Of a DNA stretch of 52,675 nt, positions 2 to 52,675 are shown piece by piece. How positions within the stretch are numbered: the stretch's first letter is position 1; every line of letters starts with the position of its first letter. The notes beneath the pieces were generated by a model. That model was not told the DNA's origin. It saw only the letters and a program-made list of their open reading frames with translations, and did no database searches. The stretch spans positions 1 through 52,675 of the IMG/VR virus record IMGVR_UViG_3300009506_000045. One strand, given 5' to 3'. This DNA comes from a virus. The position numbers and the translations under genes are program-made.

Positions 2-211
2 GGGTGGGCCCTCGCCCTCACGAAGACCGATCCCCTGACGGCCGGGTGGGCCCTCGCCCTCACGAAGACCGATCCCCTGACGGCCGGGTGGGCCCTCGCC
101 CTCACGAAGACCGATCCCCTGACGGCCGGGTGGGCCCTCGCCCTCACGGGGACCGACGACCTGACGGCCGGCTGGGCCCTCGCCCTCACGAAGACCGATC
201 CCCTGACGGCC
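2..211 (+). repeat. 42-bp tandem repeat, five copies, then decayed copies to about 355
   Basis: Units start at 2, 44, 86, 128 and 170. They are nearly identical at the base level; the differences lie in the lysine/glycine codon, the next Asp/Pro codon, and the third base of the first glycine codon. Each encodes GWALALT(K/G)TD(P/D)LTA. Decayed units continue to about 355. The same unit occurs at 52463-52602, so this is one array split by the window boundary. Near-identity suggests recent expansion, and the true copy number cannot be known from this assembly. Confidence 0.95.
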
Positions 212-805
212 GGGTGGGCCCTGTCGCTTTCCGGGACGTATTCCCGTTTGGCAGGGTGGGCGCTGGCGGTTCCAGGTGTTACATTGTTAGACGCGGCCTG
301 GGCCCTGGCCCGAACGGCGTCCGCGGCGCTTTCCGCGGGGTGGGTGGTAGCTTTGGGCGCCTCCGTCAAAGAGCAGATCCTGGCGAACCTCGAGACGACC
401 CTCCAAGGGGTCACGACCGGGAGCGGATACGATACCGACGTGGCGCGGGTCTATCGGCGTCCGATCCCCCTCCCGAACGTGAGGGAGAAGCCGGCGATCA
501 TGTTCGGAACCACCTCGACGGAGAAGACCCAGGTTCCGATCACGGCCTCGACGGTGCAGCTCACGGTACCCTTGATCCTGATCATCGACGACGATCATAG
601 CGGGGAGACCGCGGACCTGACGGCCTTCCTCAAGGACGTCGAGAACGCGCTCCAGGTGGACCACACCCGGGGCGGGTACGCGGTGGATACGATCGACGAG
701 GGGGAGGAGGATTACACCGAGGAGACCGACGCCCTGCTCGTGACGGTGAAGCGCTACCGGATCCACTATCGGCACCAGGTGCTCGACGCGGAGACGAAGG
801 TATGA
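2..805 (+). CDS. Tandem-repeat region fused in frame to a tail terminator (3' part of a gene crossing the window ends)
   Basis: The frame is open from base 2 to the stop at 803-805. Residues from about 120 onward form a tail-terminator-like domain (lambda U type): a basic N-terminal helix (KEQILANLETTLQGV), a mixed alpha/beta core, and the pattern DVENALQVD-x4-GGYAVDT followed by a YRIHYRH strand. Such proteins cap the tail tube and join it to the head. The order terminator, minor tail protein, tail tube fits this role. Upstream are five near-identical 14-residue units and then decayed ones (AGWALSLSGTYSR, AGWALAVPGVTLLD, AAWALARTASAALS) running straight into the terminator domain with no stop codon. 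Internal starts at GTG 344 or TTG 353 could give a normal-sized terminator of about 150 residues. The repeat half begins at 52391. The domain call rests on pattern and position; the fusion is what the sequence shows. Confidence 0.72.
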   Translation, partial: GWALALTKTDPLTAGWALALTKTDPLTAGWALALTKTDPLTAGWALALTGTDDLTAGWALALTKTDPLTAGWALSLSGTYSRLAGWALAVPGVTLLDAAWALARTASAALSAGWVVALGASVKEQILANLETTLQGVTTGSGYDTDVARVYRRPIPLPNVREKPAIMFGTTSTEKTQVPITASTVQLTVPLILIIDDDHSGETADLTAFLKDVENALQVDHTRGGYAVDTIDEGEEDYTEETDALLVTVKRYRIHYRHQVLDAETKV

Positions 806-1161: not shown

Positions 1162-2337
1162 ATGGGTCTAATGCGGGTGCGCCAGGTGGTGCGCAAGGTA
1201 GAGAGCACGGAGGGAACCGCCGTTAGCGTGGCGGCGGCCAACGCGGGGATCCTGGTCTACGAACCGTCGACCACGCACTCCGTGAACATGTTCAAACGGA
1301 CGCCGGCACGGGCGGCGATGTCACCCCTGGTCCAGATCCCCGGGATCCGTACGGGGACCACGGCCTACCGGGTCGAGCTCAAGGGCTCCGGAACCACGGG
1401 GACGTCTCCCTCCTGGGGGACCGACCTACAGGGTTGCGGGATGCGTGAGCTGGAGCTCTGGAAGGTCGGCATCTCTGGTGGGTCGGGGACCTTTTCGCAC
1501 GGGACCACGGTCCTGCAGGCAACGTCTCTCGCCACCGGGGTCGTGCTCAAGGACACCGACGCGAGCTCGGCGAGCTTTCTCTACGTGGGGGTGACGTCGG
1601 GCACGTTCGACGGGACCCATGTCGTCGACGACGACTACTCCTCGGCCACCTTTACGGCGAGCTCGGCGGTGGACGCGGGCGTCTCCTATTGGCCGGACTC
1701 CTCGGCTGGCGCTGGCGACGGGACGAGCTACACGGTCGGGACGTACGAAGACGGGATCCGGAAGATCATACGTGGATCCCGTGGGACCTGGGGCATCGAA
1801 ACCAACGTTGGCGAGCCGGCCTTCCTTACCTTCTCCTGGCAGGGGGTCGAGGAGGAGGTGGCAGACGCGCCCCTGCTCACGGGGATCACGTTCGAGGAGG
1901 TGACGCCCCCAAAGTTCCAGAACGTCGCCTTCGCGATCGACGATGGCTCGAGCTACTCGCCGGTCTTCGGAGCCTTTTCGTTCGCCATGAACAACCAGCT
2001 TGGGGTGAGAACGGACGCTAACTCGGCCGAGGGGGCCCTCTCGGTGCGGATCACGGACCGTGACCCTAACGGGTCGTTTGACCCGGAGACGGTGCTCGTG
2101 GCCTCGCACGACTTCTACAACAACTGGTTCGCCGGAACCACGTACTCGATGGACTTTACGCTTGGCACGGTCGCGGGGAACAAGATCGAGGTCTTCGCGC
2201 CGCGGGCGCAGTCAACCGACGTCGGGGACGGGGACCGAACGGGCCTCGCGCTCTCGCCGGTGAGCTACGGGGTGTCGGTGGACTCCATCAACACACCGGG
2301 GGACGACGAGATCGTGATCGTGCAGTGGGACGTGTAG
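1162..2337 (+). CDS. Major tail tube protein
   Basis: A 391-residue protein with a clear Shine-Dalgarno sequence (GGAGGAG) before the ATG. The segment VELKGSGTTGTSPSWGTD followed by LQGCGMRE is typical of tail tube subunits in lambda/HK97-type siphophages, which have an L-x-G-x-G-x-x-G-T-A-P-x-W-G motif. The rest is rich in Thr, Ser, Gly and Asp, as expected of an all-beta structural protein. It is longer than a minimal tube protein (about 150-250 residues), so it probably carries extra surface domains. It sits directly before the two chaperone frames and the tape measure, the conserved position of the tube gene. Confidence 0.8.
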   Translation: MGLMRVRQVVRKVESTEGTAVSVAAANAGILVYEPSTTHSVNMFKRTPARAAMSPLVQIPGIRTGTTAYRVELKGSGTTGTSPSWGTDLQGCGMRELELWKVGISGGSGTFSHGTTVLQATSLATGVVLKDTDASSASFLYVGVTSGTFDGTHVVDDDYSSATFTASSAVDAGVSYWPDSSAGAGDGTSYTVGTYEDGIRKIIRGSRGTWGIETNVGEPAFLTFSWQGVEEEVADAPLLTGITFEEVTPPKFQNVAFAIDDGSSYSPVFGAFSFAMNNQLGVRTDANSAEGALSVRITDRDPNGSFDPETVLVASHDFYNNWFAGTTYSMDFTLGTVAGNKIEVFAPRAQSTDVGDGDRTGLALSPVSYGVSVDSINTPGDDEIVIVQWDV

Positions 2338-2347
2338 GAGGTGATGT

Positions 2348-2734
2348 TTGATCGTTGTCAGCAACGCGGAGCGGATCCCTTACGTGCTCAAGCGGGAGCG
2401 TGAACTTTCGAAGGAGCGGCGGAGCATCTTCTTCTTGCGCCCACTCAAGACGAGCGTCGTGGCCCGGATCCAGGACTCGCAAGCGACCATGACCCAAGAT
2501 GGGGTCTTCGGCTTCCGAACGGCGCAGGCGACGCTCGAGATCCTGAAAGAAGGCCTGGTCGGCTGGGAGAACGTCGTTGACGAGCGGGGCGAGCAGGTTC
2601 CGTTCCGGACGCAAGGTGCGTCGGATAAACCCGCCCAGGTGACCATCGATCAGATCCCGATCGAGGAGGCCAAGGAGCTGGCGCTCGCGATCGAGGCGGG
2701 TGCACGGCTGACGGAGGACGAGGAAAAAAACTGA
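2348..2734 (+). CDS. Tail assembly chaperone, short product (lambda G-like)
   Basis: A 128-residue product read from TTG 2348, placed just after AGGAGGTGA (2336-2344). No ATG or GTG in this frame fits better. It has the features of tail chaperones: FFLRPLKTSVVARIQDS near the N terminus, then LEILKEGLVGWENVVDERG. It ends in an acidic tail and the codons GAA AAA AAC TGA, which form a slippery site. Most ribosomes stop at 2734; a fraction should shift -1 into the next frame and make the longer chaperone. The short form normally coats the tape measure during tail assembly. Confidence 0.8.
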   Translation: MIVVSNAERIPYVLKRERELSKERRSIFFLRPLKTSVVARIQDSQATMTQDGVFGFRTAQATLEILKEGLVGWENVVDERGEQVPFRTQGASDKPAQVTIDQIPIEEAKELALAIEAGARLTEDEEKN

Positions 2735-2769
2735 GGTTGGCGGTAGGGCTGGCGGACGGGGTCCTACCG
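2725..2769 (+). promoter_or_regulatory. Programmed -1 ribosomal frameshift signal
   Basis: The heptamer A AAA AAC lies at 2725-2731 in the correct phase for the zero frame (codons AAA 2726, AAC 2729). Nine bases downstream there is a stem: CGGTAGG (2741-2747) pairs perfectly with CCTACCG (2763-2769). Three inner pairs, two of them G-U, extend it to about 10 bp with a 9-base loop (2751-2759). Slippery heptamer, 5-9 base spacer and stem-loop is the classical -1 frameshift arrangement. A -1 shift joins 2348-2731 to the frame that ends at 3069. Confidence 0.87.
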
Positions 2770-3069
2770 ATGTCGTGCGATCGGTGCGAGCAGAGCCCCG
2801 AGCTTCGCCGGTCGTGGGGTTGCGACGAGCCGACCCCGTATCCGTTCGCGGTGTTTGAGATGCGAGGCAAGCGCTACCCGTTGACGCGGTGCCCGCTGAA
2901 GGAGCTCCGGAAGGAGCCCCGCATCGGGCAGGTGCTCACGGCCTACCGGTGGCTGGTGTCCTACGGCATCCCTCCGAACGAGGGGGGCCACGGGAACCAG
3001 CCGGCGGCCTTCGTGGCGGCGGTGCAGGTGATCGAGGACGAGCGGGCGAGGATCGACCGACAGCGCTGA
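2737..3069 (+). CDS. Tail assembly chaperone, frameshift extension (lambda T-like)
   Basis: This frame lies -1 relative to the chaperone and is entered from the slippery site at 2725-2731. The fusion product would run from 2348 to 3069, about 240 residues. The only nearby start is a TTG with no good ribosome-binding site, so separate translation is unlikely. The extension contains CDRC, WGCD, a short beta stretch, TRCPLKELRKEP, then LTAYRWLVSYGIPPNEGG and QPAAFVAAVQVIEDE. This resembles the second chaperone frame of siphophages. The four cysteines could bind zinc. It should recruit tail tube subunits to the tape measure. Confidence 0.72.
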   Translation: MAVGLADGVLPMSCDRCEQSPELRRSWGCDEPTPYPFAVFEMRGKRYPLTRCPLKELRKEPRIGQVLTAYRWLVSYGIPPNEGGHGNQPAAFVAAVQVIEDERARIDRQR

Positions 3070-3094
3070 TCCCAGCCTACGTAGAGGTAACGAC

Positions 3095-5188
3095 GTGGCG
3101 GACGCAAGCCTGCAGGTAGAGCTCCGGGCGAAGGACGAGGCGACCCAGGCCGTCAAGAACCTCGGGGTGGAGGGAGACAAGACCTCTAAGAGCTTGAAGA
3201 GCGGTCTGATCCCGGCCCTGCTCAAGACGGCGATCGTGCTCGAGGGTTTGAAGCTCGCGGCACGGACGGTGGGAGGGCTTATCAAGAGCCTAACCACCGG
3301 TTTCATCGACTCGGGCGACGAGATGATAAAGACGGCCCGAGCGTTCGGGGTCTCGGTCGAGCAGCTCTCAACGCTCCGGGCCGAGGCGGCGCTCGCGTCG
3401 GTGGACTTTCACGCCATGCTGATGTCGACCCGAAAGCTCGCTCAAGGGGTCGATGACCTGCGCCGGGGGACCGGAGAGTCGATCGATTCGTGGCGGTACT
3501 TTGGGATCACGATCGAGGACATCGATAAGAGCGGAGGCTCGTTGACCGACGTTATGGAGCTCCTGGCCGACCGGGTCTCGCAGCTTCCGGACAGCCTCGC
3601 GAAGGCGAACGCAGCGGGGGACATCTTCGGGCAGCGGGTCGGGAGCAAGCTGATCCCACTCCTCGACCAGGGCTCGGAGGCGCTCCGGAAGCAGAAGGAG
3701 CGGTTCATCGAGCTCGGGGTTATCATGTCGCAGGATCAAGCTCGAGCGGCGGAGAAGGCGGCCGATGCGATGACGCTCCTTCGACTCACGGCCGAGGGGG
3801 TACGGAACGAGATCGGAGCACAGGTGGCGCCCGTGCTCGAGGACCTGATCCTTCGCTTCCTGGCCTTCTTCCAGGAGGTCCGCCCCAAGCTCGTGATCTT
3901 TCTGCACGCGGTGCCGTTGACCTTCCGGGCCGTCTTCATGACCGTCCGGAAGATCATCCAGGAGGGCTTCGGCGGAGAGCTCTTCTCCGAGCTCCTGGCG
4001 AAGTTTGGGCTCCTCGGGGCGGGGATCCTGAAGATCACCGCACGTTTCGCCCTAACCATGTGGGAGCCCCTGTTCACCGAGTTCAAGATCATCGGCTATC
4101 GAATTGTCAACTTCTGGGCGGATCAGGTCGGGAACAAGCTTGTTGAGGACCTCGCCAACCTGCCCCAGAACCTAGCCCGGGTGCTCCCGAAGGGGTTGCG
4201 TGATCTGTTGGGGTTGAGCGGGTTCGCGCGAAGCACGGTCCGGGTCAAGCTCTTTCCCACCCTCGATGAGTCGGAGCTAACCTCCTTAGCAACGAAGATG
4301 CGGGCCGAGACGACCAGCATCGGGGAGGGGTTCCGCAAGGCCGGGGCCGAGGCGGTAGCGCAGTTCTCGGTGCTTTTTGACAAGCTCAAGACCACGGACG
4401 CGAGCTTCCCCCAGCTCAAGAGGGTCTTCGTCGGGGTCGCGGCAGCGTTGAAGCAGGCGCAGCGCGAGGCGGAGAAATTCAATAAGGAGGCGGACCCTAC
4501 CGGCAAGCCGACGATCACGGCCTGGCAACGGTTCCTCGGTCTTGACGAAAAGGGAGACATCCAGGCGGATCAGGGCTTCCTCGGGGCCCTGCAAAAGATC
4601 AAAGCCGACCTAGACGACGTGGGGATGCGCGGGGTCAAGGTCGGGCAGGACCTGGCGGCAGCGCTGACCAGCGCGCTCGACAACGGGTTCTTCAAGGTTA
4701 TCGAGGGAGGCTTCGAGTCGACCCGACGGTTGTTCAAGGATCTGCTGGCGGACATCCTCAAAGGGCTCGCTCAGATCGCGGCGCGGCAGGTGACCTCGAG
4801 CATCGTCTCGAACGCGATAGGGTTGTTGCCTGGCCTAGCAAAGGGGGGCGTGGTTCCAGGTGAGCTCCTTCGTACGGTCCCCGTCCAGGCGTACCAGCAC
4901 GGCGGGATCGCGACCTCGCCCCAGCTCGCGCTCTTCGGCGAGGGGAGCAGCCCCGGCGAGGCCTTCGTGCCGCTCGGCCCTAACCGTAAGATCCCGGTCG
5001 AGCTGGACGGGAAGGGAGCGACCCCGGGACGAACGACCAACCTCACGCTGAACGTCCAGGCGATCGACGCGGCCTCGTTCGCGACCTTCCTCGATCGACC
5101 GAGCAACCGGGCGCTGCTGAAGAACCTCCTCGTGGACGAGGTAAACATCGACGACGGGTTCCGTCGTACCTTGAACCGGAGGCGGTGA
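3095..5188 (+). CDS. Tape measure protein
   Basis: A 697-residue protein read from GTG 3095 with GAGGTAA upstream. The N terminus (VELRAKDEATQAVKNLG) is typical of tape measure proteins. It is followed by hydrophobic helices near residues 45-75 and 265-330, coiled-coil-like stretches, and a glycine-rich C-terminal part (LFGEGSSPGEAFVPLG) also common in this family. It is the longest gene between the chaperones and the tail tip. By the usual rule of about 0.15 nm per residue the tail would be near 100 nm. It controls tail length and probably reaches the host membrane during DNA injection. Confidence 0.9.
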   Translation: MADASLQVELRAKDEATQAVKNLGVEGDKTSKSLKSGLIPALLKTAIVLEGLKLAARTVGGLIKSLTTGFIDSGDEMIKTARAFGVSVEQLSTLRAEAALASVDFHAMLMSTRKLAQGVDDLRRGTGESIDSWRYFGITIEDIDKSGGSLTDVMELLADRVSQLPDSLAKANAAGDIFGQRVGSKLIPLLDQGSEALRKQKERFIELGVIMSQDQARAAEKAADAMTLLRLTAEGVRNEIGAQVAPVLEDLILRFLAFFQEVRPKLVIFLHAVPLTFRAVFMTVRKIIQEGFGGELFSELLAKFGLLGAGILKITARFALTMWEPLFTEFKIIGYRIVNFWADQVGNKLVEDLANLPQNLARVLPKGLRDLLGLSGFARSTVRVKLFPTLDESELTSLATKMRAETTSIGEGFRKAGAEAVAQFSVLFDKLKTTDASFPQLKRVFVGVAAALKQAQREAEKFNKEADPTGKPTITAWQRFLGLDEKGDIQADQGFLGALQKIKADLDDVGMRGVKVGQDLAAALTSALDNGFFKVIEGGFESTRRLFKDLLADILKGLAQIAARQVTSSIVSNAIGLLPGLAKGGVVPGELLRTVPVQAYQHGGIATSPQLALFGEGSSPGEAFVPLGPNRKIPVELDGKGATPGRTTNLTLNVQAIDAASFATFLDRPSNRALLKNLLVDEVNIDDGFRRTLNRRR

Positions 5189-5189
5189 C

Positions 5190-6782
5190 GTGGCCGATAC
5201 CGCCGATCGGTTCCAGATCACGCCTCCTAGCGGAGCCGCTAGCGGCCCGCAGGCTGGACGTTCGGCCTCGCTCCATATCGGAGGCGGCCAGCTCTTCGCC
5301 CTCTTTGAGAAGAGCGACTCCTCGCAGACCCTCATGACGTCGATCGACTCCGGGGCTACGTGGGCGGTCGACGGCTCGAGCGGCGATTGGCCCTGCCCGA
5401 TCTTCAACGCGCAGTGCCTGGCCTGGAACCCGAGCACGGAGGAGCTCTATATCTTCCGCGTCGTCTCGGGAATCATCGGCTGGCGACACCGAACGGCGGC
5501 CGGAACCTGGTCGAGCCTCGAGATCATGGACAGCTCGGCCTCGGACAGCTTGGCCAGCATCCTCGACGCCCGGATCGGGTCGGACGGGAACGGGAGGGCT
5601 TGTTACTACTCCGCGGCCGGCGGAACGCACCACCTATGGTACTGGGCGGACGGTGGGGTAGAGACCAACGAGACGATCGCCACCGACGGGGGAGCCTACG
5701 GAACCTCGGGCTTCGGTTCGATCGCGATCGTGCTCGCGAGCGACGACACCCCGCACGTGCTCTTCTACGGGGTGGCCTCCTCGGCCCGGTCCGGTCTAAA
5801 CACGATCTGGCATAGCTACCGAACGGGGGGTGCGTGGACGACGCCGGTGGCGATCAAGACCGACGTCTCCGACGACCACAGCAGCGTTGACTTCCGGCCG
5901 GTCATGGGGCCTAGCGGAAACCTCCTGGTGCCGTTCGTCGCGAAGGACGGGAGCGGGGTCAACCGGCTCTACCTGGCGGAGTGGACCGGCTCCTGGACCG
6001 ACTACCTCGTTGACAGCGAGTGGGAGCCGCGAAACACGAACGGCGTGGTCGCGGGGGTGGACCAGGACGGCGTCTGCTGGATCGCTACGAACGGCGAGGT
6101 TGACAGCGTGCTCCTGAACCAGGCGCAGGTCTACGTTTGGAAGCGGCTTCCCGGCTCGAGCTCGTTCACCCGGGAGAGGGTCGGCACGGAGAACCGAAAC
6201 GTTGGATCCTCGGCTACGACGGTCTGGTCATCGGGGGCGGACGTCGCTGGGAGCTCCTCGCTGCAACCGTTGACCGGGGCCTTCTGGTTCTTCTACGGAG
6301 ACTGGGACGACTCGACCGGAAAGTACTGGTTCGTGCGCTCCCCTAACCTGACGTGGGACACCCCGGAGCCGCAGCCGGTCTGCGAGGCGGAGCCGACCCG
6401 GACCTCCGTGATCTTCGACGACGAGGGGACGAGCGAGGTTACCTTCGGCTACACCCCCGACCTGGCCTTCACGGTACGTGGGAGCTTTTCGACCAACGAG
6501 CTCCGGACCGAACGGGGCTACGTTATCACGCACCCGAAGCAGCCGGCGACGAGGCGGACCTGGCGGCTGCTCTTCCAGCACCGGGACCAGACCGATCGGG
6601 ACGGAATCCTCGCGGACGTCGAGACGCTCGACGCTGCGCGCGGCACCTTCACCTTTACCGAGCCGGTGTCCGGAGCCTCGATCGTCGCGTCCTTGGTGTC
6701 GGGCTCGGTCACCTCGACGAAGGTCAACCCCGGGGTCTACACGGTATCGTTCGACGCGGTCGAGCTGGTGAACACGACGTGA
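5190..6782 (+). CDS. Minor tail protein: sialidase-like beta-propeller plus C-terminal M-like domain
   Basis: A 530-residue protein read from GTG. Residues 51-58 (SIDSGATW) are a perfect Asp-box (S/T-x-D-x-G-x-T-W), the mark of sialidase-type beta-propellers. The next ~350 residues are repeated beta strands rich in Trp, Gly and Ser, as in a propeller. The last ~100 residues (TRRTWRLLFQHRD, then GTFTFTEP and YTVSFDAVELV) match the layout of the small tail protein at 802-1149. A propeller in a tail-tip protein suggests glycan binding or cleavage during adsorption; I cannot identify sialidase catalytic residues. The gene lies between the tape measure and the L-like protein. Confidence 0.72.
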   Translation: MADTADRFQITPPSGAASGPQAGRSASLHIGGGQLFALFEKSDSSQTLMTSIDSGATWAVDGSSGDWPCPIFNAQCLAWNPSTEELYIFRVVSGIIGWRHRTAAGTWSSLEIMDSSASDSLASILDARIGSDGNGRACYYSAAGGTHHLWYWADGGVETNETIATDGGAYGTSGFGSIAIVLASDDTPHVLFYGVASSARSGLNTIWHSYRTGGAWTTPVAIKTDVSDDHSSVDFRPVMGPSGNLLVPFVAKDGSGVNRLYLAEWTGSWTDYLVDSEWEPRNTNGVVAGVDQDGVCWIATNGEVDSVLLNQAQVYVWKRLPGSSSFTRERVGTENRNVGSSATTVWSSGADVAGSSSLQPLTGAFWFFYGDWDDSTGKYWFVRSPNLTWDTPEPQPVCEAEPTRTSVIFDDEGTSEVTFGYTPDLAFTVRGSFSTNELRTERGYVITHPKQPATRRTWRLLFQHRDQTDRDGILADVETLDAARGTFTFTEPVSGASIVASLVSGSVTSTKVNPGVYTVSFDAVELVNTT

Positions 6783-15359: not shown

Positions 15360-15476
15360 CCGAACCTGGGAACCTAGGAACCTACGTTTTTGCCTCCCCC
15401 TCTACAGTTTGGTTGACCCTTGACCTTGTTCCTGACGGGGGATAGAAAACGGAGGTTCCTAGGTTCCAAGGTTCGT
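15360..15476. promoter_or_regulatory. Divergent control region with 3 + 3 inverted 8-bp iterons
   Basis: Three contiguous units lie at 15360-15383: CCGAACCT, GGGAACCT, AGGAACCT. Three contiguous units in the opposite direction lie at 15453-15476: AGGTTCCT, AGGTTCCA, AGGTTCGT. The two arrays are about 70 bp apart and flank a stretch with overlapping TTGACC boxes (15413 and 15420) and a weak TAGAAA -10 match at 15443 for rightward transcription. One array lies about 47 bp before the primase start, the other about 25 bp before the kinase-like start. This looks like operators for one regulator acting on both divergent promoters, or part of an origin. The same iterons recur at 38990-39243. Confidence 0.72.
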
Positions 15477-21351: not shown

Positions 21352-21705
21352 ATGGTCCAGCGTGAGAAGCTCACGGTCTCCGACCCGCTCCGCCGGCTCC
21401 TAAGGGCGGACGGGTGGCTCGTTGAGAAGAGCCACGGTAACCTGTATCAAGCTGGCTGGCCGGACCTGTACTGCTTTCATCTAGCGCACGGCCACCGGTG
21501 GGTCGAGACGAAGACCCCGAACGGGCGCCTCACCCCGGCCCAGTTCGAGACGTTCTCCCGGTGGGTCGAGGCGGGCGTCCCGATCTGGATCCTGACCGAG
21601 CCACGTCCCGACCTGCTCCTCGACCCGCCGAACGCCCGGGCCTGGCTCGACCGCTACCGGCCGGCGGAGCGGCGGACGGTTGGTCGGTACTTCGAGTCAG
21701 CGTAG
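21352..21705 (+). CDS. VRR-NUC-type nuclease (PD-(D/E)xK fold)
   Basis: A 117-residue protein with the compact VRR-NUC layout: LVEKSHGNLYQAGWPDLYCF (catalytic Asp in GWPDL), then RWVETKTPNGRLTPAQ (E-x-K pair), then a C-terminal helix. Phage VRR-NUC proteins act on branched DNA or structured ends, like Holliday junction resolvases. It follows the polymerase operon by ten bases and probably belongs to replication or recombination. Confidence 0.78.
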   Translation: MVQREKLTVSDPLRRLLRADGWLVEKSHGNLYQAGWPDLYCFHLAHGHRWVETKTPNGRLTPAQFETFSRWVEAGVPIWILTEPRPDLLLDPPNARAWLDRYRPAERRTVGRYFESA

Positions 21706-21713
21706 CGCATGGT

Positions 21714-21761
21714 CTAACTTACGACCTAACTTACGACCTAACTTACGACCTAGCTTACGAC
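21714..21761. repeat. 12-bp tandem repeat, four copies
   Basis: CTAACTTACGAC is repeated at 21714, 21726 and 21738, with a fourth copy CTAGCTTACGAC at 21750. It lies in a 215-base non-coding gap, just after the nuclease gene and before a hairpin and a promoter cassette. The spacing of 12 bp (little more than one helix turn) would suit cooperative protein binding, but no function is shown. Confidence 0.85.
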
Positions 21762-26036: not shown

Positions 26037-26684
26037 ATGAACATCGTACAGGAGTATACGTCGGGTCGACGTAATTTCAACGAGGCCAACCTGCGCTGGG
26101 CCGACCTGTCCGGGGCCGACCTGCGCTGGGCCAACCTGTCCGGGGCCAACCTGCACAGGGCCAACCTGCACAGGGCCAACCTGCGCGGGGCCAACCTGTC
26201 CGGGGCCAACCTGCGTAGGGCCGACCTGCGCTGGGCCAACCTGTCCGGGGCCGACCTGCGCTGGGCCAACCTGTCCGGGGCCAACCTGTCTGGGGCCGAC
26301 CTGTCCGAGGCCGACCTGTCCGGGGCCAACCTGTCCGGGGCCGACCTGCGCTGGGCCAACCTGTCCGGGGCCGACCTGTCTCATACACGTTTACCTGCCC
26401 CAACGGCGGTACTGTCGGCCAATTGGGGCCAGGTCCCGGAGGACCTGTGTCTTGATCTCATGCGATACGACGCCTCCAACCACCCAGCGGGCGTAGCGGC
26501 GTTTGATCGTTGGGCTCTCGATGGCCCATGTCCCTATGCTGTCGTGGAGACGCAACGATGCGCCAACTTCCAGGAGTCCCGATCGATCTGGCAGAACCGA
26601 CCAACGACCGACGCTCCCGTCCCCACGGCGCTCGAGCTGGTACGACGGCTGCTCGCAGCCTCTTGCCGGGGGAGCACCCTATGA
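26037..26684 (+). CDS. Pentapeptide-repeat protein
   Basis: A 215-residue protein. Residues ~14-118 are about 21 pentapeptides of the form A(N/D)L-x-x ([20 protein letters not shown] and so on), enough for roughly five turns of a right-handed beta helix. The repeats are also 15-bp repeats in DNA. The last ~80 residues are a separate domain common in phage members of this family ([10 protein letters not shown], then DLMRYDA and [12 protein letters not shown]). Some pentapeptide proteins (MfpA, Qnr) imitate DNA and protect gyrase; that role is possible here but not shown. Confidence 0.82.
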
Positions 26685-26903: not shown

Positions 26904-27614
26904 GTGCAATACTTCGGCGGCAAAGCTCGCGTCGGGCCGAGGATCGTGGTCGAGCTCGAACGGGTTCGCAACGGTCGTCCGTTCGTGGAGCCCTTCTGCG
27001 GGGGCCTCTGGATCACGCATCGGATGGCCGGTGAACGGTACGCCTCGGATCTCTGCCGACCGCTCATCACGCTCTACGAGGCCTTGCAGGATGGGTGGGA
27101 TCCGCCGTCGGTCGTGACCGAGGAGACCTACCACCGGATCAAGCAGGTCCAGGACCCGTTCGACCCGATGACGGCCTTCGTGGGCTTCGGCTGCTCGTTC
27201 GCGGGGAAGTTCTTCGGGGGCTACGCCCGGAATCTATCCGTCCGTAACTACGCTGCGACCGCTCGGAGCTCGCTCCTCCGGAAGATGAAGACCTGCCAGG
27301 ATGTGCGCTTCTCCTGTGTTGACTACCGGAAGATCGCCCCCAGGGGTACCCTCGTTTACCTGGACCCGCCCTACCTGAACTGCACCCCGGCAGGCGGGCT
27401 CAACTCGATCGATACCGAGGAGCTCTGGGCGGTAGTCCGTTCGTGGAGCGACCGTAACCTGGTCGTGGTCTCGGAGTACGTGGCCCCGCCCGACTTCCTC
27501 GAGCTGGCGGCCTTCCCAACGACGACCCGCATCCGTAACGCTCGGAACGAACAGGAACCCCGGCTCGAAAAGCTCTTCGTTCACGCATCCTTAGCACGAG
27601 AGGTAAACCTATGA
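26904..27614 (+). CDS. DNA adenine N6-methyltransferase, Dam/D12 class
   Basis: A 236-residue protein from GTG 26904. Motifs: YFGGKAR at the very N terminus (SAM-binding side), FVEPFCGG near residue 30, and the catalytic LDPPYLN at about 153-159. Order and size match the D12 (Dam-like) class, which methylates the N6 of adenine. There is no adjacent restriction enzyme, so it probably protects phage DNA from host restriction or helps regulation. Target sequence unknown. It overlaps the next gene by four bases. Confidence 0.85.
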   Translation: MQYFGGKARVGPRIVVELERVRNGRPFVEPFCGGLWITHRMAGERYASDLCRPLITLYEALQDGWDPPSVVTEETYHRIKQVQDPFDPMTAFVGFGCSFAGKFFGGYARNLSVRNYAATARSSLLRKMKTCQDVRFSCVDYRKIAPRGTLVYLDPPYLNCTPAGGLNSIDTEELWAVVRSWSDRNLVVVSEYVAPPDFLELAAFPTTTRIRNARNEQEPRLEKLFVHASLAREVNL

Positions 27615-29641
27615 ACCTGCGCCTCGGAGCCTCGAACCTGAAGGCCGTCGACTTCGTCCAGGAGCTCACCGGGCTCGACCTGCTGATCGGCCCGAACGGG
27701 GTCGGCAAAAGCTCGCGGCTCGACGCCCTCAAGCTCCTCCTCCTCGGCTACGTGCCGATCCGGGGCAACCGCTCCGCCGGCTCGACCTACGCGGCCCTCG
27801 CCCGTGACCTGGAGCAGCCGATCGAGGTCTGGCTCTCGTGGACCGAGGAACTTCCCGACGCTCCGGAGGTTACCGAGCGGACCGTCCGTCGGATCGTCGA
27901 ACCAGCCCGAAACGACAAGCCGGGCAAGCAGATCCTCGTCGTCGACGACGTGAGGGCTCCGACCCTAAAGGAGGGGCAAGCCCGTCTCGAGGCCCTGCTC
28001 GGCCGGCACCTCGCGACCCTCGACCTGGCGAAGGCCCTCGGGGGCTCGGACGCGGATCGGCGGGCCTGGCTCCTGGAGACGTTCCCCCCGGACGCGGTGA
28101 CGCTGCCCGAGGATCTGCGGTACGAGGGCGCCCCGACGGACCCAGCCGAGCTCAAGCAGGACGTGACCGGGCACGTGACCGAGGTACGCGCGAGGCTCCG
28201 GGCCGCGGAGCAGGCCCACGAGGCCGCGAAGGCCGAGGCTCGGACGTGCCCCGACCCCCCGAACCTGGTCGACCTCGAGGAGCTTCTGGCGACCCTTCGA
28301 CGAGAGGTCGAGCAACGGGCCCGGCTCGAGGGTCGGCTCGAGACGCTCCGCTTCGATCCACCGCTGCGCGTCGATCCGCCCGGTGACGAGCCGGCCAAGC
28401 CGACCCGATCGGTGGCCGAGCTCGACGAGGAGGTCCGGCAGCTCACGCCGCGGCTCAAGGCGCTCGAGACGGCGAACGAGGCCCACCGGGCCCGGGAGGA
28501 GGAGCGGACCGCGTGGGCCCAGCAGGAGGCCCCGACCCGCGAGGCCTTCCTGGTGGCCTGCCGTAACCTCGGCTGGGAGGAGGCCGACCCTACGGACGCT
28601 CGGCAGCGTTTGGCGGCCGAGCTGGCTAACCTCGACGAGGCCATCGATCGGGCCGGCGTCACGGAGGCCCCGACCATCTGCCCGATCAGCGAGATGGTGA
28701 CCTGTCCCGTGCGGTGGGAGCCGCACCTCGAGGACCTAGCGGCGAGACGCGACCAGCTCCGAGGGGAGCGGGCCAAGCTCCAGAGCGTCTCCGACCTGGC
28801 GACCGCGTGGTCGGTGCTCGGCACCGCCCCGCCCGCGCTCCCTGACGTAGGGGAGGAGCTCCAGCGGGTCCGGGACAAGCTCGCGGAGATCCGGGACACC
28901 GCCCGGACGTCCCGGGAGGCAGAGGCCGCGTGGAGCACCTGGGAGGCCGCGCGGCAGGCTTACGAGGCCTACCAGGCCGAGCTCGCTCGGCACGAGGCGG
29001 CCGTCCGGGAGCTCGATCGGCTCGAGGGCGAGCTCGCCAAGCTGACGGTCGTGGACCCCCAGCCCACCGAGGACCGCCTCAAGGAGGGGCGCGAGAGGGC
29101 TTCGCGCAAGCGGCACGTGACCGAGCAGGTCGAGCGCACGCTCCGGGCCCTCGAGGCGGCCCGGGCGGCCTACGAGCGCTGGACGGCCCGGCAGGAGCTG
29201 GTCGCCCAGGTAGAGCGGCAGGCCCTCGGCCAGGCCTCGGGGATCGACGTCCCCGGGCTCGGTCGGCTCGAGGTCGACGCGGAGGCGGCCCGGATCTCGG
29301 TCGGCGGCCGGACGCTCGACGCTCTGTCGGCGGGCGAGCAGGTCCTGGCCCTAACCTACCTGACCCTGTACGCGCTCGGAGGGACAGGCTCGACCGACGA
29401 GAAGCGTTCGACCGACGAGAAGCGTTCGACCGACGAGAAGCGTTCGACCGACGAGAAGCGTTCGACCGACGAGAAGCGTTTTCTCGTGGTTGAAGCAGCC
29501 GAGCTCCACCCGACCCTCTTCGCGGACCTCCTGGCTCACCTGGTCAAGCTCGACGGGCTCTACGTGATCGTCTGCCGACCGGAGGGCCTGGCCCGTCCGA
29601 TCGACGGGGTTACGGTCTGGAACCTGGGGGGTGCATCATGA
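27611..29641 (+). CDS. SbcC/Rad50-like ATPase
   Basis: A 676-residue protein. Walker A is GPNGVGKSS (27-35). A long coiled coil fills residues ~180-560, interrupted near 357-366 by CPISEMVTCP, which looks like a zinc-hook variant. The ABC signature is DALSAGEQVLAL (~571). Just after it, residues 594-623 are five exact STDEKR repeats, followed directly by FLVVEAAELHP where Walker B should be; the expected Asp is replaced by Glu or missing. With its nuclease partner it would process DNA ends; no SbcD-like gene is adjacent, though a DnaQ-like exonuclease lies two genes downstream. Confidence 0.8.
   Translation: MNLRLGASNLKAVDFVQELTGLDLLIGPNGVGKSSRLDALKLLLLGYVPIRGNRSAGSTYAALARDLEQPIEVWLSWTEELPDAPEVTERTVRRIVEPARNDKPGKQILVVDDVRAPTLKEGQARLEALLGRHLATLDLAKALGGSDADRRAWLLETFPPDAVTLPEDLRYEGAPTDPAELKQDVTGHVTEVRARLRAAEQAHEAAKAEARTCPDPPNLVDLEELLATLRREVEQRARLEGRLETLRFDPPLRVDPPGDEPAKPTRSVAELDEEVRQLTPRLKALETANEAHRAREEERTAWAQQEAPTREAFLVACRNLGWEEADPTDARQRLAAELANLDEAIDRAGVTEAPTICPISEMVTCPVRWEPHLEDLAARRDQLRGERAKLQSVSDLATAWSVLGTAPPALPDVGEELQRVRDKLAEIRDTARTSREAEAAWSTWEAARQAYEAYQAELARHEAAVRELDRLEGELAKLTVVDPQPTEDRLKEGRERASRKRHVTEQVERTLRALEAARAAYERWTARQELVAQVERQALGQASGIDVPGLGRLEVDAEAARISVGGRTLDALSAGEQVLALTYLTLYALGGTGSTDEKRSTDEKRSTDEKRSTDEKRSTDEKRFLVVEAAELHPTLFADLLAHLVKLDGLYVIVCRPEGLARPIDGVTVWNLGGAS
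29390..29479 (+). repeat. 18-bp tandem repeat, five exact copies, inside the SbcC-like gene
   Basis: TCGACCGACGAGAAGCGT is repeated at 29390, 29408, 29426, 29444 and 29462 with no differences. It stays in frame (STDEKR) and sits between the ABC signature and the Walker B region. Exact identity points to recent slippage or expansion. Confidence 0.97.
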
Positions 29642-38958: not shown

Positions 38959-38989
38959 GTGCCAAAAGTGGACCCTTCTAGGCTCCGGC

Positions 38990-39243
38990 AGGAACCTAGG
39001 AACCTTCGCCGAACCTAACCAAAAGGCTAGGTTCGGTTGGAAGTCAGGGTGGGGTAAGAGTTTACGTGGGTCAGGAACCTAGGAACCTAGGAAGGTGTAT
39101 ATCCTCTATACACGTAGAGATACAAGACAAATCTTCTCTGTATTTTCCAGGTGGTTTTTCTTAGGTTCCTAGGTTCCTGCGAAGCATCAAGATAGGTCAG
39201 GATAAGGGATTACAACGGAACCTAGCTCCGAACCTAGGAACCT
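38990..39243. promoter_or_regulatory. Iteron region between early and late genes (candidate origin or master control region)
   Basis: The non-coding gap 38959-39335 holds about 12 copies of the 8-bp unit AGGAACCT. Forward units lie at 38990, 38998, 39009 (CCGAACCT), 39073, 39081, 39089 (degenerate), 39216, 39228 (CCGAACCT) and 39236; reverse units at 39029 (AGGTTCGG), 39163 and 39171. Many are head-to-tail at exact 8-bp steps. CCGAACCTA/TAGGTTCGG (39009-39036) and GTGTATA/TATACAC (39095-39113) form inverted repeats, and 39097-39160 is AT-rich for this genome. Iterons plus an AT-rich segment suits an origin or a cooperative operator. The same units flank the divergent promoters at 15.4 kb. Confidence 0.75.
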
Positions 39244-39899: not shown

Positions 39900-41441
39900 G
39901 TGCTCGAACCGTACACCTCCCCTACGTGGGAGGAGACCTGGCTCTGGATCCGGGACAAGAGCGGCCGGCTGATCCCCTTCGTTGAGAACCCGATCCAACG
40001 AGCCTACGACCGAGCCCTCGAGGACGCGTTCCGGCTGACCCCGCGGCGCCACGCCCTCGTGCTCAAGTATCGCCGGGGAGGGATCACGACCCGGGAGCAG
40101 GCTCGCTCGTACCGGGCGGTGGCGACCCAGCGGTACCAGTCCGTCGTGACCGTGGCCCAGGAGGCGGACGCCACGACCCAGATCTTCGAGATCGCGCGAA
40201 CCTTCGACGAGCTCTACCGTGGCCCCTCGAAGCGGGGCAACAAGCGTGAGATCCGTTTCGACGACCACAGCTCCGCGTTCCGGATCGGGACGGCGGGCAA
40301 GACGGCGTTCGGTCGTGGGGCCACCTACCAGCGGGCGCACCTCTCGGAGGTCGCCTTCTGGCCGGCTCGGGTGGACGTGCCTCGCATGGTCGCGGCGATC
40401 ACCGAGGCCGCCTCGCACGGGGAGGTGATCGCGGAGACCACGCCGGGTGCGGTCGGTGACTGGTTCTACACCACCTGGAAGGATGCCCGGGAGGGGCGAA
40501 ACGACTGGGCTACCGTCTTCCTCCCCTGGTGGCACGACCCGACGCTACGGGTGCCGCTGACCCCGGACGCGGAGGCGGGGCTCCTGGAGACGCTCACGGA
40601 GCGGGAGGCGCACCTCCGGGACCACGAACACCTGGACGCGAGGCAGCTCGCGTGGAGGCGGCTCAAGAAGAGGCAGCTCCGGAACCTGTTCGGGAGCGAG
40701 TACCCCGAGGACCCGATCACGTGCTTCCTGCGCTCGGGCCTCTCGTTCTTCGACGTGCCGCGGTTGTCGGAGCTCATCGGTCGGTGCCGACCTTTCGTGG
40801 CGGAGGAGCGCTACCCCGGCGGGAAGCTCCGTATCTGGCACCCGCCCGAGGAGGGGGAGGCCTACTCGATCGGGGTCGACGCCTCGGATGGGATCGACGG
40901 GGGTGACTACTCCTGCGCGGGGGTGCTCCGGGACCGGGACGGGGAGCAGGTGGCCGAGCTCCACGGCCTGTTCCGGCCGCGAGACCTGGCGCACCACGTG
41001 GCAACCCTCGGCCGCCGATACCACACGGCCCGGCTGGCCGTCGAGAAGAACGAGCATGGCCACGCGGTCCTGCTCTCGCTCACCGACCCCCGGCACGAAG
41101 ACTATCCCCGGGGGCGCCTCTATCGAGCCTGGACCCGGACCGCCAAGGGGGCCCTGTCTCGATCGTCTCGTTTTGGGTGGACGACGAACGCGGAAACGCG
41201 TACCGTGTTGCTGGGTGACCTGGCGCGGGCCCTCGAGGGCGACGTGCTCCCGGACGGTTACGGGGACCCCGGGATGAAGGTCAACTCCCCCGAGCTCCTC
41301 GAGGAGTGCTTCTCGTTTCGATCCACCAGAGCCGGTAGGTACGAAGCGGAGGCCGGACGCTACGACGACCGGGTCATGGCGTGGGGCATCGCATGGCAGC
41401 AGCGACAGGATCGGATCACGACCCCCGGGCTCGTGACGTGA
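39900..41441 (+). CDS. Terminase large subunit
   Basis: A 513-residue protein from GTG 39900. The ATPase half has LVLKYRRGGITT in the Walker A place, VVTVAQEADATTQIF, RAHLSEVAFWP in the Walker B place (Glu in SEVAF) and VIAETTPGAVGDW as the coupling motif. The nuclease half has IGVDASDGIDGGDYSC, LAVEKNEHGHAV and YDDRVMAWGIA, the RNaseH-like acidic residues. It packages DNA into the prohead. The stop overlaps the portal start (GTGA). Confidence 0.88.
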   Translation: MLEPYTSPTWEETWLWIRDKSGRLIPFVENPIQRAYDRALEDAFRLTPRRHALVLKYRRGGITTREQARSYRAVATQRYQSVVTVAQEADATTQIFEIARTFDELYRGPSKRGNKREIRFDDHSSAFRIGTAGKTAFGRGATYQRAHLSEVAFWPARVDVPRMVAAITEAASHGEVIAETTPGAVGDWFYTTWKDAREGRNDWATVFLPWWHDPTLRVPLTPDAEAGLLETLTEREAHLRDHEHLDARQLAWRRLKKRQLRNLFGSEYPEDPITCFLRSGLSFFDVPRLSELIGRCRPFVAEERYPGGKLRIWHPPEEGEAYSIGVDASDGIDGGDYSCAGVLRDRDGEQVAELHGLFRPRDLAHHVATLGRRYHTARLAVEKNEHGHAVLLSLTDPRHEDYPRGRLYRAWTRTAKGALSRSSRFGWTTNAETRTVLLGDLARALEGDVLPDGYGDPGMKVNSPELLEECFSFRSTRAGRYEAEAGRYDDRVMAWGIAWQQRQDRITTPGLVT

Positions 41442-43723
41442 GGCCGGGCGTGTTCACGGTGGAGAAGGGGGTTCCGGACCTGGACCCTGACTTCAGGCTC
41501 TCGGAGCGGCTTCGCGAGGCTCGGGGCGACAGGGTCAAGGACCCGTTCGAGAACCACGTTTGGGTCTACGCGGCGCTGCATCGGATCGCCACCAACCTCT
41601 CGCAGGTTCCGGTCGAGGTCTACGTAGAGCAGGCTCCGAGCGTGCAGAACGAGGCAGCGCACGTCGTTCAACGCCAGGTCTGGGTCCGGGGGCAGGGGAT
41701 GCAACCGGTCGCGGTTCGCCGGCGCCCCCGGGTGACGCGCTATATCAACGCGCAGCCGGCCCACCGGGTGGCTCGCGCGGTCTACCTCAAGGACCTCGTT
41801 GAGGTCGAGGGCTCTCCGTGGACCGAGCTCTTCGATCGGCCGAACCCGTATACGACGGGAATCGGGCTCTGGTACCTGACGCTCGTGCACATGTACGCGA
41901 ACCGGGGAGCGTTCTGGGTGCTCCTCGGGAAGAGCGGAGCACCTCGGGACAAGGGGGAGATGCCGGCGGAGATCTGGGTCCAGCCGGCGACCGCGTACAC
42001 GGCCGCCATCGACCAGAACCGACAGGCGCTCCTCTACTGGAAGCGTTCAGATCGGCAAGGTGCGAACCTGGACCCGCACCAGGTGGTCCGCTTCGGGTTC
42101 CCCAACCCGTCTGACCCGTTGAAGTTCTCGACGCCCCTCGGGCCGCTCGAGAGCGACCTGCGCCAGGACCTCAAGGCGAGTCGGTACAACGAGGCCTTCT
42201 TTGACAACTCGGGCGAGCTCTCGGTGATCCTCTCGACCGACCAGACCCTCAACGAGGAGGAGGCGAAACGGATCCAGAGGCAGTTCGACGACCGACACAG
42301 CGGCCCTGGACACCGAAGCCGGACGGCGGTTGCTCACTCGGGGCTTCATGCGGAGGTCGTCGGGGTCTCGCAGAAGGACATGGACTTCATGGAACAGCGA
42401 CGGTGGAACCGTTCCGCCGTGCTCGCGACGACCGGGACCCCCGAGGCTGAGCTCTCTATCTATGAGAACCTGATCGAGTCGAACGCGATCAGCCAGAACC
42501 GAGCCTTCTGGGAGAAGACCTTGATCCCCGTGGTGAGGTTCGTGGAGGCGGCGCTCTATGCTCAGCTCCTTCCTGGCCCCGAGTTTGCCTTGTTCGACCT
42601 GGGCGGGGTGCGAGCCCTGCAGGCGATCTTCACCGAGCAGGTGGACCAGGCGCAGAAGCTCTTCGCGATCGGAGTGCCCCTGAACGAGATCCATGAGAGG
42701 TTGGAGACGGGGCTCGAGCCCCACCCGTGGGGTGAGGTCGGCTACCTGCCCTTGAACCTCGTGCCGGCTGATACGCTGGGGGGCCCAACGGGGGACAACC
42801 CTCCGCCGGGTAACCCTCCGCCGGAAGCGCCACCGAGCGATGCCCCGTCGGATGCCCCGTCGGATGCCCCGTCGGATGCCCCGTCAGATACCCCGTCGAA
42901 AGCCCGACGCGCGGTCCGGTTGGGCGGGCCGACGTGGGGTCGGATCGTGGAGCGGGTCTTCGCTCCGACCGAGCGGGCCTTCGGGAAGGTCTACCGTCGC
43001 TGGGCGGTGGCGCTACGTCGAGCCCAGCTCGACCTCCTGGAGCAGGCCGCCCGGGACGGGCTCCTCGGGGCGGCGGCCGAGGTGCCGGAGCTCAAGACCG
43101 GTCGAAAGGTGCTCACCTCGACGTCGGTCGAGGCGATCCTGTTTGCTCTCGACGATTGGGGCCGGCGTCTTACCGAGGTCACGCGGCCGGAGTACGAGCG
43201 GATCGCGAGCCTCTCGCTGGAGCAGGTCGCGGCCGAGCTCGGGGGCGTGTTCACCTTTGACCTCACCGACCCCCGGTTGTTGACCTATCTCGGGGACAAG
43301 GAGATCAAGATCCAGCGGGTCGCGCAGACGATCCGTGAGAACGTCCGGAACGAGATCATCCAAGGGCTCGCGGCGGGCGAGGCTCCCGGAGCGATCCAGG
43401 ATCGGGTCAAGCGGGCGTTCAACTTCGCGACGAGCCCGCGGCGCGCGCTTATGATCGCGCGTACGGAGGTCGGGCAGACCCAGGGTGGGGTACGGAACAT
43501 GACCTTCGAGGCGGAGGGGGTCAAACAGCACCAGTGGGTGACGGCTGGGGACGAGGCGGTTCGGGACGACCATATTACCCTGGGCGGCACCCCCGAGGTG
43601 CCTCTGGGGCACAACTTCATGGAGGACCTGGGGGAGGACGGGGTCTTGACGTTCCCGTCCGATCCGCAGGGACCTCCGGGACAGATCATCAACTGCCGGT
43701 GCGTGGCGATCGCGGTCCGGTGA
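41438..43723 (+). CDS. Portal protein fused to MuF-like minor head protein
   Basis: A 761-residue protein from GTG 41438. Residues ~1-440 are an HK97-type portal (HVWVYAALHRIATNLSQVPV, LIESNAISQNRAFWEKTL then IPVVRFVE). A repetitive linker (SDAP units, 42839-42898) follows, and then a MuF-like domain: RALMIARTEVGQTQGG, QWVTAGDEAVRDDH, PLGHNF, INCRC near the end. MuF domains ride into the capsid and can carry cargo. Fusions of portal and MuF are known but less common than separate genes. There is no toxin domain after the MuF part. Confidence 0.85.
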   Translation: MRPGVFTVEKGVPDLDPDFRLSERLREARGDRVKDPFENHVWVYAALHRIATNLSQVPVEVYVEQAPSVQNEAAHVVQRQVWVRGQGMQPVAVRRRPRVTRYINAQPAHRVARAVYLKDLVEVEGSPWTELFDRPNPYTTGIGLWYLTLVHMYANRGAFWVLLGKSGAPRDKGEMPAEIWVQPATAYTAAIDQNRQALLYWKRSDRQGANLDPHQVVRFGFPNPSDPLKFSTPLGPLESDLRQDLKASRYNEAFFDNSGELSVILSTDQTLNEEEAKRIQRQFDDRHSGPGHRSRTAVAHSGLHAEVVGVSQKDMDFMEQRRWNRSAVLATTGTPEAELSIYENLIESNAISQNRAFWEKTLIPVVRFVEAALYAQLLPGPEFALFDLGGVRALQAIFTEQVDQAQKLFAIGVPLNEIHERLETGLEPHPWGEVGYLPLNLVPADTLGGPTGDNPPPGNPPPEAPPSDAPSDAPSDAPSDAPSDTPSKARRAVRLGGPTWGRIVERVFAPTERAFGKVYRRWAVALRRAQLDLLEQAARDGLLGAAAEVPELKTGRKVLTSTSVEAILFALDDWGRRLTEVTRPEYERIASLSLEQVAAELGGVFTFDLTDPRLLTYLGDKEIKIQRVAQTIRENVRNEIIQGLAAGEAPGAIQDRVKRAFNFATSPRRALMIARTEVGQTQGGVRNMTFEAEGVKQHQWVTAGDEAVRDDHITLGGTPEVPLGHNFMEDLGEDGVLTFPSDPQGPPGQIINCRCVAIAVR
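42839..42898 (+). repeat. 12-bp tandem repeat in the portal-MuF linker
   Basis: GATGCCCCGTCG is repeated from 42839 to 42874, then GATGCCCCGTCA and GATACCCCGTCG, giving five in-frame units (SDAP type). It makes a flexible linker between portal and MuF-like parts. Confidence 0.93.
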
Positions 43724-52375: not shown

Positions 52376-52390
52376 CGTGTGAGGTGAACC

Positions 52391-52602
52391 GTGTGGGCCT
52401 CCTGGTCGATCCCCCGGTACCTCGAGCCTCCGTTTTCGAGCGAAACGAAGGCGCTCGGGGCCGGCTGGGCCCTCGCCCTCACGGGGACCGACGACCTGAC
52501 GGCCGGGTGGGCCCTCGCCCTCACGGGGACCGACCCCCTGACGGCCGGCTGGGCCCTCGCCCTCACGGGGACCGATCCCCTGACGGCCGGGTGGGCCCTC
52601 GC
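52391..52602 (+). CDS. Tandem-repeat protein, 5' part (continues at the window start)
   Basis: Read from GTG 52391 with GAGGTGAACC upstream, the same leader as the MCL genes. A 24-residue start (VWASWSIPRYLEPPFSSETK then ALGA) leads into units GWALALTGTD(D/P)LTA at 52463, 52505, 52547 and a partial one at 52589. The repeat is interrupted at 52603. The matching array at bases 2-211 and its in-frame link to a tail terminator show that this is the 5' end of that gene. The Trp/Leu/Thr pattern suggests a beta repeat fold; no known family. Confidence 0.7.
52463..52602 (+). repeat. 42-bp tandem repeat, three full copies and a partial one
   Basis: Same unit as at 2-211. Together with the start of the window it makes one array whose true length is unresolved. 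Confidence 0.95.
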
Positions 52603-52675
52603 TGGCGTAGTGCTGCGCCAGTCTGGACAGTTCGCTGTGTTCGGTATAGTTCAGCGCCAGGTCGGAAAAGATCGC
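52603..52675. other. Probable chimeric tail, not part of the phage genome
   Basis: At 52603 the sequence leaves the repeat abruptly. The last 73 bases have lower GC and different codon flavour; on the minus strand they read as ordinary protein (AIFSDLALNYTEHSELSRLA). It is most likely an assembly artefact or read-through into unrelated DNA. Confidence 0.6.

Follow-up and report, generated by a model that had tools for sequence, protein, structure and literature searches.

A phage tail terminator gene with an N-terminal tandem-repeat extension, found in two related IMG/VR contigs

The repeat-terminator gene and its surroundings

The stretch of DNA analysed here (hereafter the window), environmental DNA of a bacterial virus, comprises all 52,675 bases of an IMG/VR virus record, which is linear and in which end repeats were not found. 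At its left end, an ORF of 267 aa (2..805, + strand) is open from the first bases of the contig and encodes 14-residue repeat units (GWALALTKTDPLTA and close variants), followed by degenerate units (209-361) and a tail terminator core (~362-802), with zero stop codons between the repeats and the terminator. Tandem Repeats Finder (TRF) placed this left array at 1-222, with a period of 42 bp, 5.3 copies and 93% matches, and the 24-nt core of the unit was matched seven times in the window compared to zero times in 100 dinucleotide-preserving shuffles. At the right end, an ORF with a GTG start at 52391 and its own Shine-Dalgarno-like sequence encodes a leader and then continues into the same 42-bp repeat up to 52602 (TRF: 52459-52602, period 42 bp, 3.4 copies, 94% matches). 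At least eight units are visible in the window (one cut and seven intact), and further units may lie in the gap. The features of the locus are collected in Table 1.

Table 1 Features of the repeat-terminator locus in the window
Feature	Coordinates	Strand	Evidence or remark
Left-hand repeat array	2..208	+	One cut unit (2-40) and 4 intact units; TRF, unit alignment
Degenerate terminal units	209..361	+	Last three conserved with L002, one codon length difference
Candidate internal start TTG	353..355	+	Aligned next to L002 GTG 6001 and the initiators of bare homologues L004 and L012
Tail terminator core and stop codon	362..805	+	PHROG 4204, 7e-11; model (248-802) resembles terminators including T5 p142 and lambda gpU
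Next gene, 115 aa	802..1149	+	ATG overlaps terminator stop; 74% identity in L002
Probable tail tube protein	1162..2337	+	Pfam Phage_tube_2, 6.2e-05, 23.2 bits (curated cut-off 27); 71% identical in L002
Gene immediately preceding the fused gene, 113 aa	52034..52375	+	78% identity in L002
Shine-Dalgarno-like GAGGTGA of the fused gene	52381..52387	+	Hybridisation energy -6.9 kcal/mol
GTG start and N-terminal leader, ~23 codons	52391..52459	+	Leader omega 0.17 vs L002 (24 codons)
Right-hand repeat array	52460..52602	+	3 intact units and first 17 nt of a fourth
Contig tail off the repeat	52603..52675	.	Not continuing the array; ~73 bp

Using the terminator as query, a second contig of 13.8 kb was found (IMGVR_UViG_3300009506_000299, hereafter L002), the terminator of which is 74% identical to that of the window. 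In L002 the leader, about 11 repeat units, the degenerate units and the terminator are all encoded by one 363-codon ORF (5365-6456) on one contig, and the array has the same 42-bp period (10.6 copies, TRF). The gene order is common to both contigs and consists of the 113-residue gene, the fused gene, the 115-residue gene and the tube-like gene (identities in Table 1). No stop or frameshift was seen, and the sole length difference between the window and L002 outside the array is one whole codon. The frame in L002 opens at codon 5362, GTG 5365 is its first start-type codon, and the Shine-Dalgarno-like sequence is strong (-11.5 kcal/mol), with L002 having AGGAGGTGA where the window has GAGGTGA.

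Since L002 carries the whole gene unbroken and with the same neighbours, the two ends of the window are the halves of one gene that was split by assembly failure in the repeat. The original prediction, that the repeat frame has no stop before the terminator and that decayed repeats run into the N terminus of the latter, was thus borne out, the frame being unbroken both in the left-end ORF of the window and in the single ORF of L002. The junction had been described as lying across genome ends; these are instead contig ends, the record being linear without end repeats and the array being internal in L002. It could also be imagined that the array was wrongly joined to the terminator during assembly, as the break in the contig does fall within the array, to which the final ~73 bp do not belong, but the same structure is found unbroken and with the same neighbours in the independent contig of another record, and an artefact of this kind is regarded as highly improbable. 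The last ~73 bp (52603-52675) are probably a chimeric or mis-assembled contig end, outside the gene. Searches with this segment against E. coli genomes, plasmids and phages were negative, as was a search of genome contigs with a pattern derived from the encoded peptide; one minus-strand frame is open throughout the segment. Repeats can in this way break metagenome assemblies and turn one gene into two open-ended fragments at opposite ends of a contig.

When the terminator, the next gene, the tube gene and the upstream gene were used as queries, the L002 contig was the only close relative; by these queries none was confirmed in genome contigs and no match was obtained in phages or plasmids, and the leader as query also gave no confirmed relative. 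A scan of viral contigs for four Gly-Trp pairs spaced 14 codons apart returned 105 stretches, all of which were translated, and the unit of the window was present in a single one of them, on the L002 contig. Within reach of these patterns, the repeat-armed variant appears to be rare in IMG/VR. The comparison of copy number among related phages that had been suggested as a check did reveal variation, though only between the two phages at hand.

Two further candidates were rejected. A repeat ORF in L058 gave a score with the L002 array that was equalled or exceeded by 7 of the 142 column-permuted controls that were scored (200 were made); this ORF (2384-5164, ~928 aa, at least 927) consists largely of a DNQPIYLxGK-type 14-residue repeat. 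The weak terminator-like match in L089 proved to be a bare ORF, separate from the Gly-Trp repeat protein of that contig. Acidic 14-residue repeats of the type GWDDPxEAxxWYxA, a different family of equal period, were observed in the viral contigs L014/L032, L028 and L050.

The window contains several other repeats. The segments 15361-15475 and 38988-39243 share GGAACCTAGGTTCC-like repeats, which are present in both direct and inverted orientation (longest arms 22-30 nt, 93-95% complementary), and may be operator or origin sites. A 12-bp repeat (CTAACTTACGAC) with four copies at 21714-21761 lies just past an ORF ending at 21705 and is iteron-like. Inside genes, a 15-bp / 45-bp array (26084-26380) is found in ORF 26037-26684, which strongly matches the pentapeptide repeats (PF00805, 6.4e-41), an 18-bp repeat (29390-29480) occurs in five perfect copies in ORF 27611-29641, which has weak AAA ATPase matches, and a 12-bp repeat (42839-42898; five copies, 93%) is found in the portal gene (41381-43723), the C-terminus of which matches head-morphogenesis families.

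The C-terminal tail terminator

The identification of the C-terminal part as a tail terminator is well supported by its match to PHROG 4204 ("tail terminator"; aa 121-264 of the window ORF; E 2.3e-08 for L002), by the gene order, and by a low-confidence structure model matching T5 p142 and lambda gpU. The Pfam family Phage_tail_terminator_7 also matched, at 13.5 bits and thus below its cut-off of 27. The model of 248-802 has a low mean pLDDT of 50.5; compared to the PDB using Foldseek, it gave 34 matches at E <= 1e-3, almost all of which were tail terminators or neck/cap structures (including 9j1j, 9ilv, 8bcu and 3fz2, and with the monocin cap, T5 p142 and lambda gpU among them). At this low confidence the core agrees with the terminator fold, comprising a sheet, two flanking helices and a hairpin, as in T5 p142 and gpU. 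The neighbouring genes encode proteins with head-tail adaptor and Neck1 matches upstream, and a tube-like protein and a tape measure downstream.

The similarity to the siphophage terminators lambda gpU, SPP1 gp17 and T5 p142 covers the C-terminal ~147 residues (PHROG 4204, the model and the position before the tube gene), but unlike in these proteins, 215 of the 363 residues in L002, more than half, make up an N-terminal leader and repeat array. The expectation that terminators are normally small and bare agrees with the nearest bare relatives that were found, L004 (149 aa, 34% identical to the query) and L012 (81% identical to L004), but is too narrow as a general statement, as terminators with additional domains have been published. 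Some are described as larger and carrying additional domains (PMC11784142), and gp99 of phage 812 has an extra beta-sandwich (PMC12886913). The enlarged terminators resemble the protein studied here in having a core with an extra domain outside of it. They differ in that the extra part here is N-terminal and made of tandem repeats, and in that no recognised sheath gene was found among the genes scanned here. With extra domains on terminators already known, the tandem-repeat arm is an uncommon form of a well-known component. In the open-access papers searched, terminators extended by tandem repeats were not encountered, and the papers joining the terms "tail terminator" and "tandem repeats" concern other proteins or cite software. 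To our knowledge, no such terminator has been described.

Sequence, selection and fold of the repeat

Alignment of the seven intact units of the window gave the pattern A-G-W-A-L-A-L-T-(G/K)-T-D-(P/D)-L-T, and alignment of the ten intact units of L002 gave A-G-W-A-T-A-L-T-(G/R)-T-D-(A/V)-(T/I)-L; units of the window that are cut (2-40) or broken (52586), and all degenerate ones in the two phages, were excluded from these statistics. At position 9, Gly alternates with a basic residue in both phages, which is Lys in the window and Arg in L002. In every intact unit, the two phages are distinguished by codons 4, 5, 12, 13 and 14, and only a few codons vary within either phage. Because the units are near-identical within a phage and differ between the phages at these five codons, the arrays are, on the evidence of the alignment, homologous and homogenised separately in the window and in L002. 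The last three units (AGWALAV.., AAWALAR.. and AGWVV..) are degenerate and conserved between the phages, with one codon of length difference.

In the comparison of the window with L002, the leader (24 codons) had an omega of 0.17, the cap units (38 codons) one of 0.60 and the terminator (147 codons) one of 0.33, where the values for leader and caps are rough owing to the small codon numbers; two neighbouring genes gave 0.16 and 0.30. These ratios point to purifying selection on the leader and the terminator, with the cap units evolving faster than the terminator. The array is open in other frames too, and the case for its translation therefore rests on the leader, the caps, and the first possible start with its strong Shine-Dalgarno-like sequence in L002.

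The AlphaFold2 model of the L002 protein has strands at residues ~41-120 (block-mean pLDDT 76-86; overall 50.7), and no PDB match was obtained with the full model at E <= 1e-3. The predicted strands count for little, since AlphaFold2 is described as inventing solenoids on perfect repeats, having turned 32 of 78 random sequences made of perfect repeats into beta-solenoids (PMC11795689). The Pfam family LbR_Ice_bind matched the L002 array at 30.2-32.7 bits, compared to a cut-off of 30, but did not match the array of the window. Of eight tiles built from shuffled units, three reached or passed the cut-off of some unrelated family, and none matched LbR. On account of these tiles the protein was not assigned to the beta-roll family; PDB sequence matches to 3ult and 3s6l were weak too (E 0.014 and 0.033). 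What is shared with the 14-residue left-handed beta-rolls (LbR_Ice_bind, and Hep_Hag, the repeat period of which is 14 residues) is the period, the LbR_Ice_bind profile match being specific to the L002 array. An alpha-helical 14-residue unit, with an Asp-Pro cap and a Gly end, is as arguable as a beta unit.

Internal start and proposed role of the extension

Where the bare homologues L004 and L012 start, the alignment has TTG 353 (window) and GTG 6001 (L002). A start-type codon followed by Gly is present at this site in both phages, and the bare homologues begin with ATG GGT (L004) and GTG GCT (L012). TTG and GTG are weaker starts than ATG. The Shine-Dalgarno energies at the internal candidates are -7.6 (TTG 353) and -7.0 kcal/mol (GTG 6001), compared to a median of -8.0 kcal/mol for 53 gene starts in the window, chosen from the ORF list, and a 10th percentile of -7.8 for 2000 random positions. 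Six orthologous gene pairs together provided 1651 aligned internal codons. At 43 of these, both phages have a start-type codon, and the combination of a start-type codon and an energy of <= -7 in both was found for one codon at the exact position and for two with one codon of slack, although this threshold was set after the values of the candidate had been seen. Taken as support for an internal start, the conserved codon and its energies are suggestive only.

In the reading that we favour, and to which we assign a probability of about 0.5, the protein is a terminator bearing an N-terminal repeat arm that points outward from the ring at the head-tail joint, similar to a collar or whisker. The ring protein capping the head-proximal end of the tail tube would carry at its N-terminus the leader, about ten 14-residue repeats and three degenerate units, and six such arms would extend away from this ring where head and tail meet, giving a decoration that resembles a collar or whiskers, the words "arm" and "whisker" being guesses at its shape. 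The arm would become longer or shorter as 42-bp units are added or deleted, and its charge would vary at repeat position 9 (G/K or G/R). A short, bare terminator is probably made too, from the internal start, which would be compatible with the armed reading.

That the protein is present in the virion, that its ring is hexameric, that the arm points outward and that it has any role in surface contact are inferences. Terminators are reported to form hexameric rings atop the tail tube (PMC12886913, PMC11784142). In that of phage 812, helices lie outside the channel-lining sheet (PMC12886913), and both the N- and C-terminal parts of the phage P1 terminator bind the sheath (PMC10304247). An outward arm is suggested by analogy with these two proteins, and by the model, in which a few residues separate the end of the repeat from the first core helix. 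The T5 terminator with an N-terminal His tag was soluble and monomeric, compared to a C-terminally tagged version that forms fibres (PMC11784142), and an N-terminal extension might for that reason hinder ring formation.

The T5 result also lends itself to a different interpretation, where the extension acts in assembly, either by keeping the terminator a soluble monomer until tail assembly has finished or by binding a neck protein, the length of the extension not being critical. About ten near-identical units would not be needed for such a function, however, and neither a cleavage site nor a partner was identified; we consider this role unlikely. We rate as similarly unlikely that the array is a neutral expansion, in which the 42-bp unit was multiplied in frame by slippage or recombination and tolerated in a flexible N-terminal region. 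Separate homogenisation of the units in each phage is what such an expansion would produce, and an array that is open in other frames offers no evidence of selection by its openness alone, but the leader and cap units flanking the array are conserved in the same frame and the array has been kept in both phages despite their clear divergence.

A stronger alternative, though one to which we give somewhat less than even odds, is that the gene has two products, a full-length repeat protein from the upstream GTG and a bare terminator from the internal start, resulting in a mixed or mostly bare ring with the long form as a minor decorating subunit. The aligned start-type codons followed by Gly, energies not far from the gene-start median, and the scarcity of comparable internal codons argue for it, while the energies are ordinary when compared to random positions, the threshold was post hoc, and the codons could be remnants of an ancestral initiation site that predates the fusion. 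The original prediction had offered an internal start separating two products as the alternative to an extended terminator; the aligned codons and their energies lend this some support, with a relic of the pre-fusion start being equally possible. Use of the internal start could leave most ring subunits bare, which would count against an armed ring. Armed and bare forms may also be combined, such that one gene yields a bare terminator and a tandem-repeat-armed long form of evolvable length, and hence a neck ring whose outward arms could be tuned in number or length, but this we regard as doubtful. If the internal start is used, a parallel exists in the extended major tail proteins of SPP1 and of 936 phages (TpeX; PMC6669499), where one gene likewise gives core and decorated forms of a ring protein. 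Their extension is C-terminal, produced by a programmed frameshift and located on the tube, compared to an N-terminal extension, a candidate internal start and a location on the terminator here.

For the armed terminator, a counterpart in proposed place and role is the neck passage structure or collar of lactococcal 936 phages, which decorates the head-tail joint (PMC6669499). The neck passage structure (936/TP901-1) is encoded by a separate gene and has a BppU-like domain and carbohydrate-binding modules, whereas the extension described here is fused to the terminator, and Pfam and PHROG scans of it revealed neither a BppU-like nor a carbohydrate-binding domain. Terminators are a widely conserved part of long-tailed phages that fix the end of the tail and the point of head joining. 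If the armed reading is true, a conserved, length-variable arm on their ring would be a new site for virion decoration, and the copy number of the 42-bp unit would provide a simple genetic handle on the effects of neck decoration on assembly or attachment.
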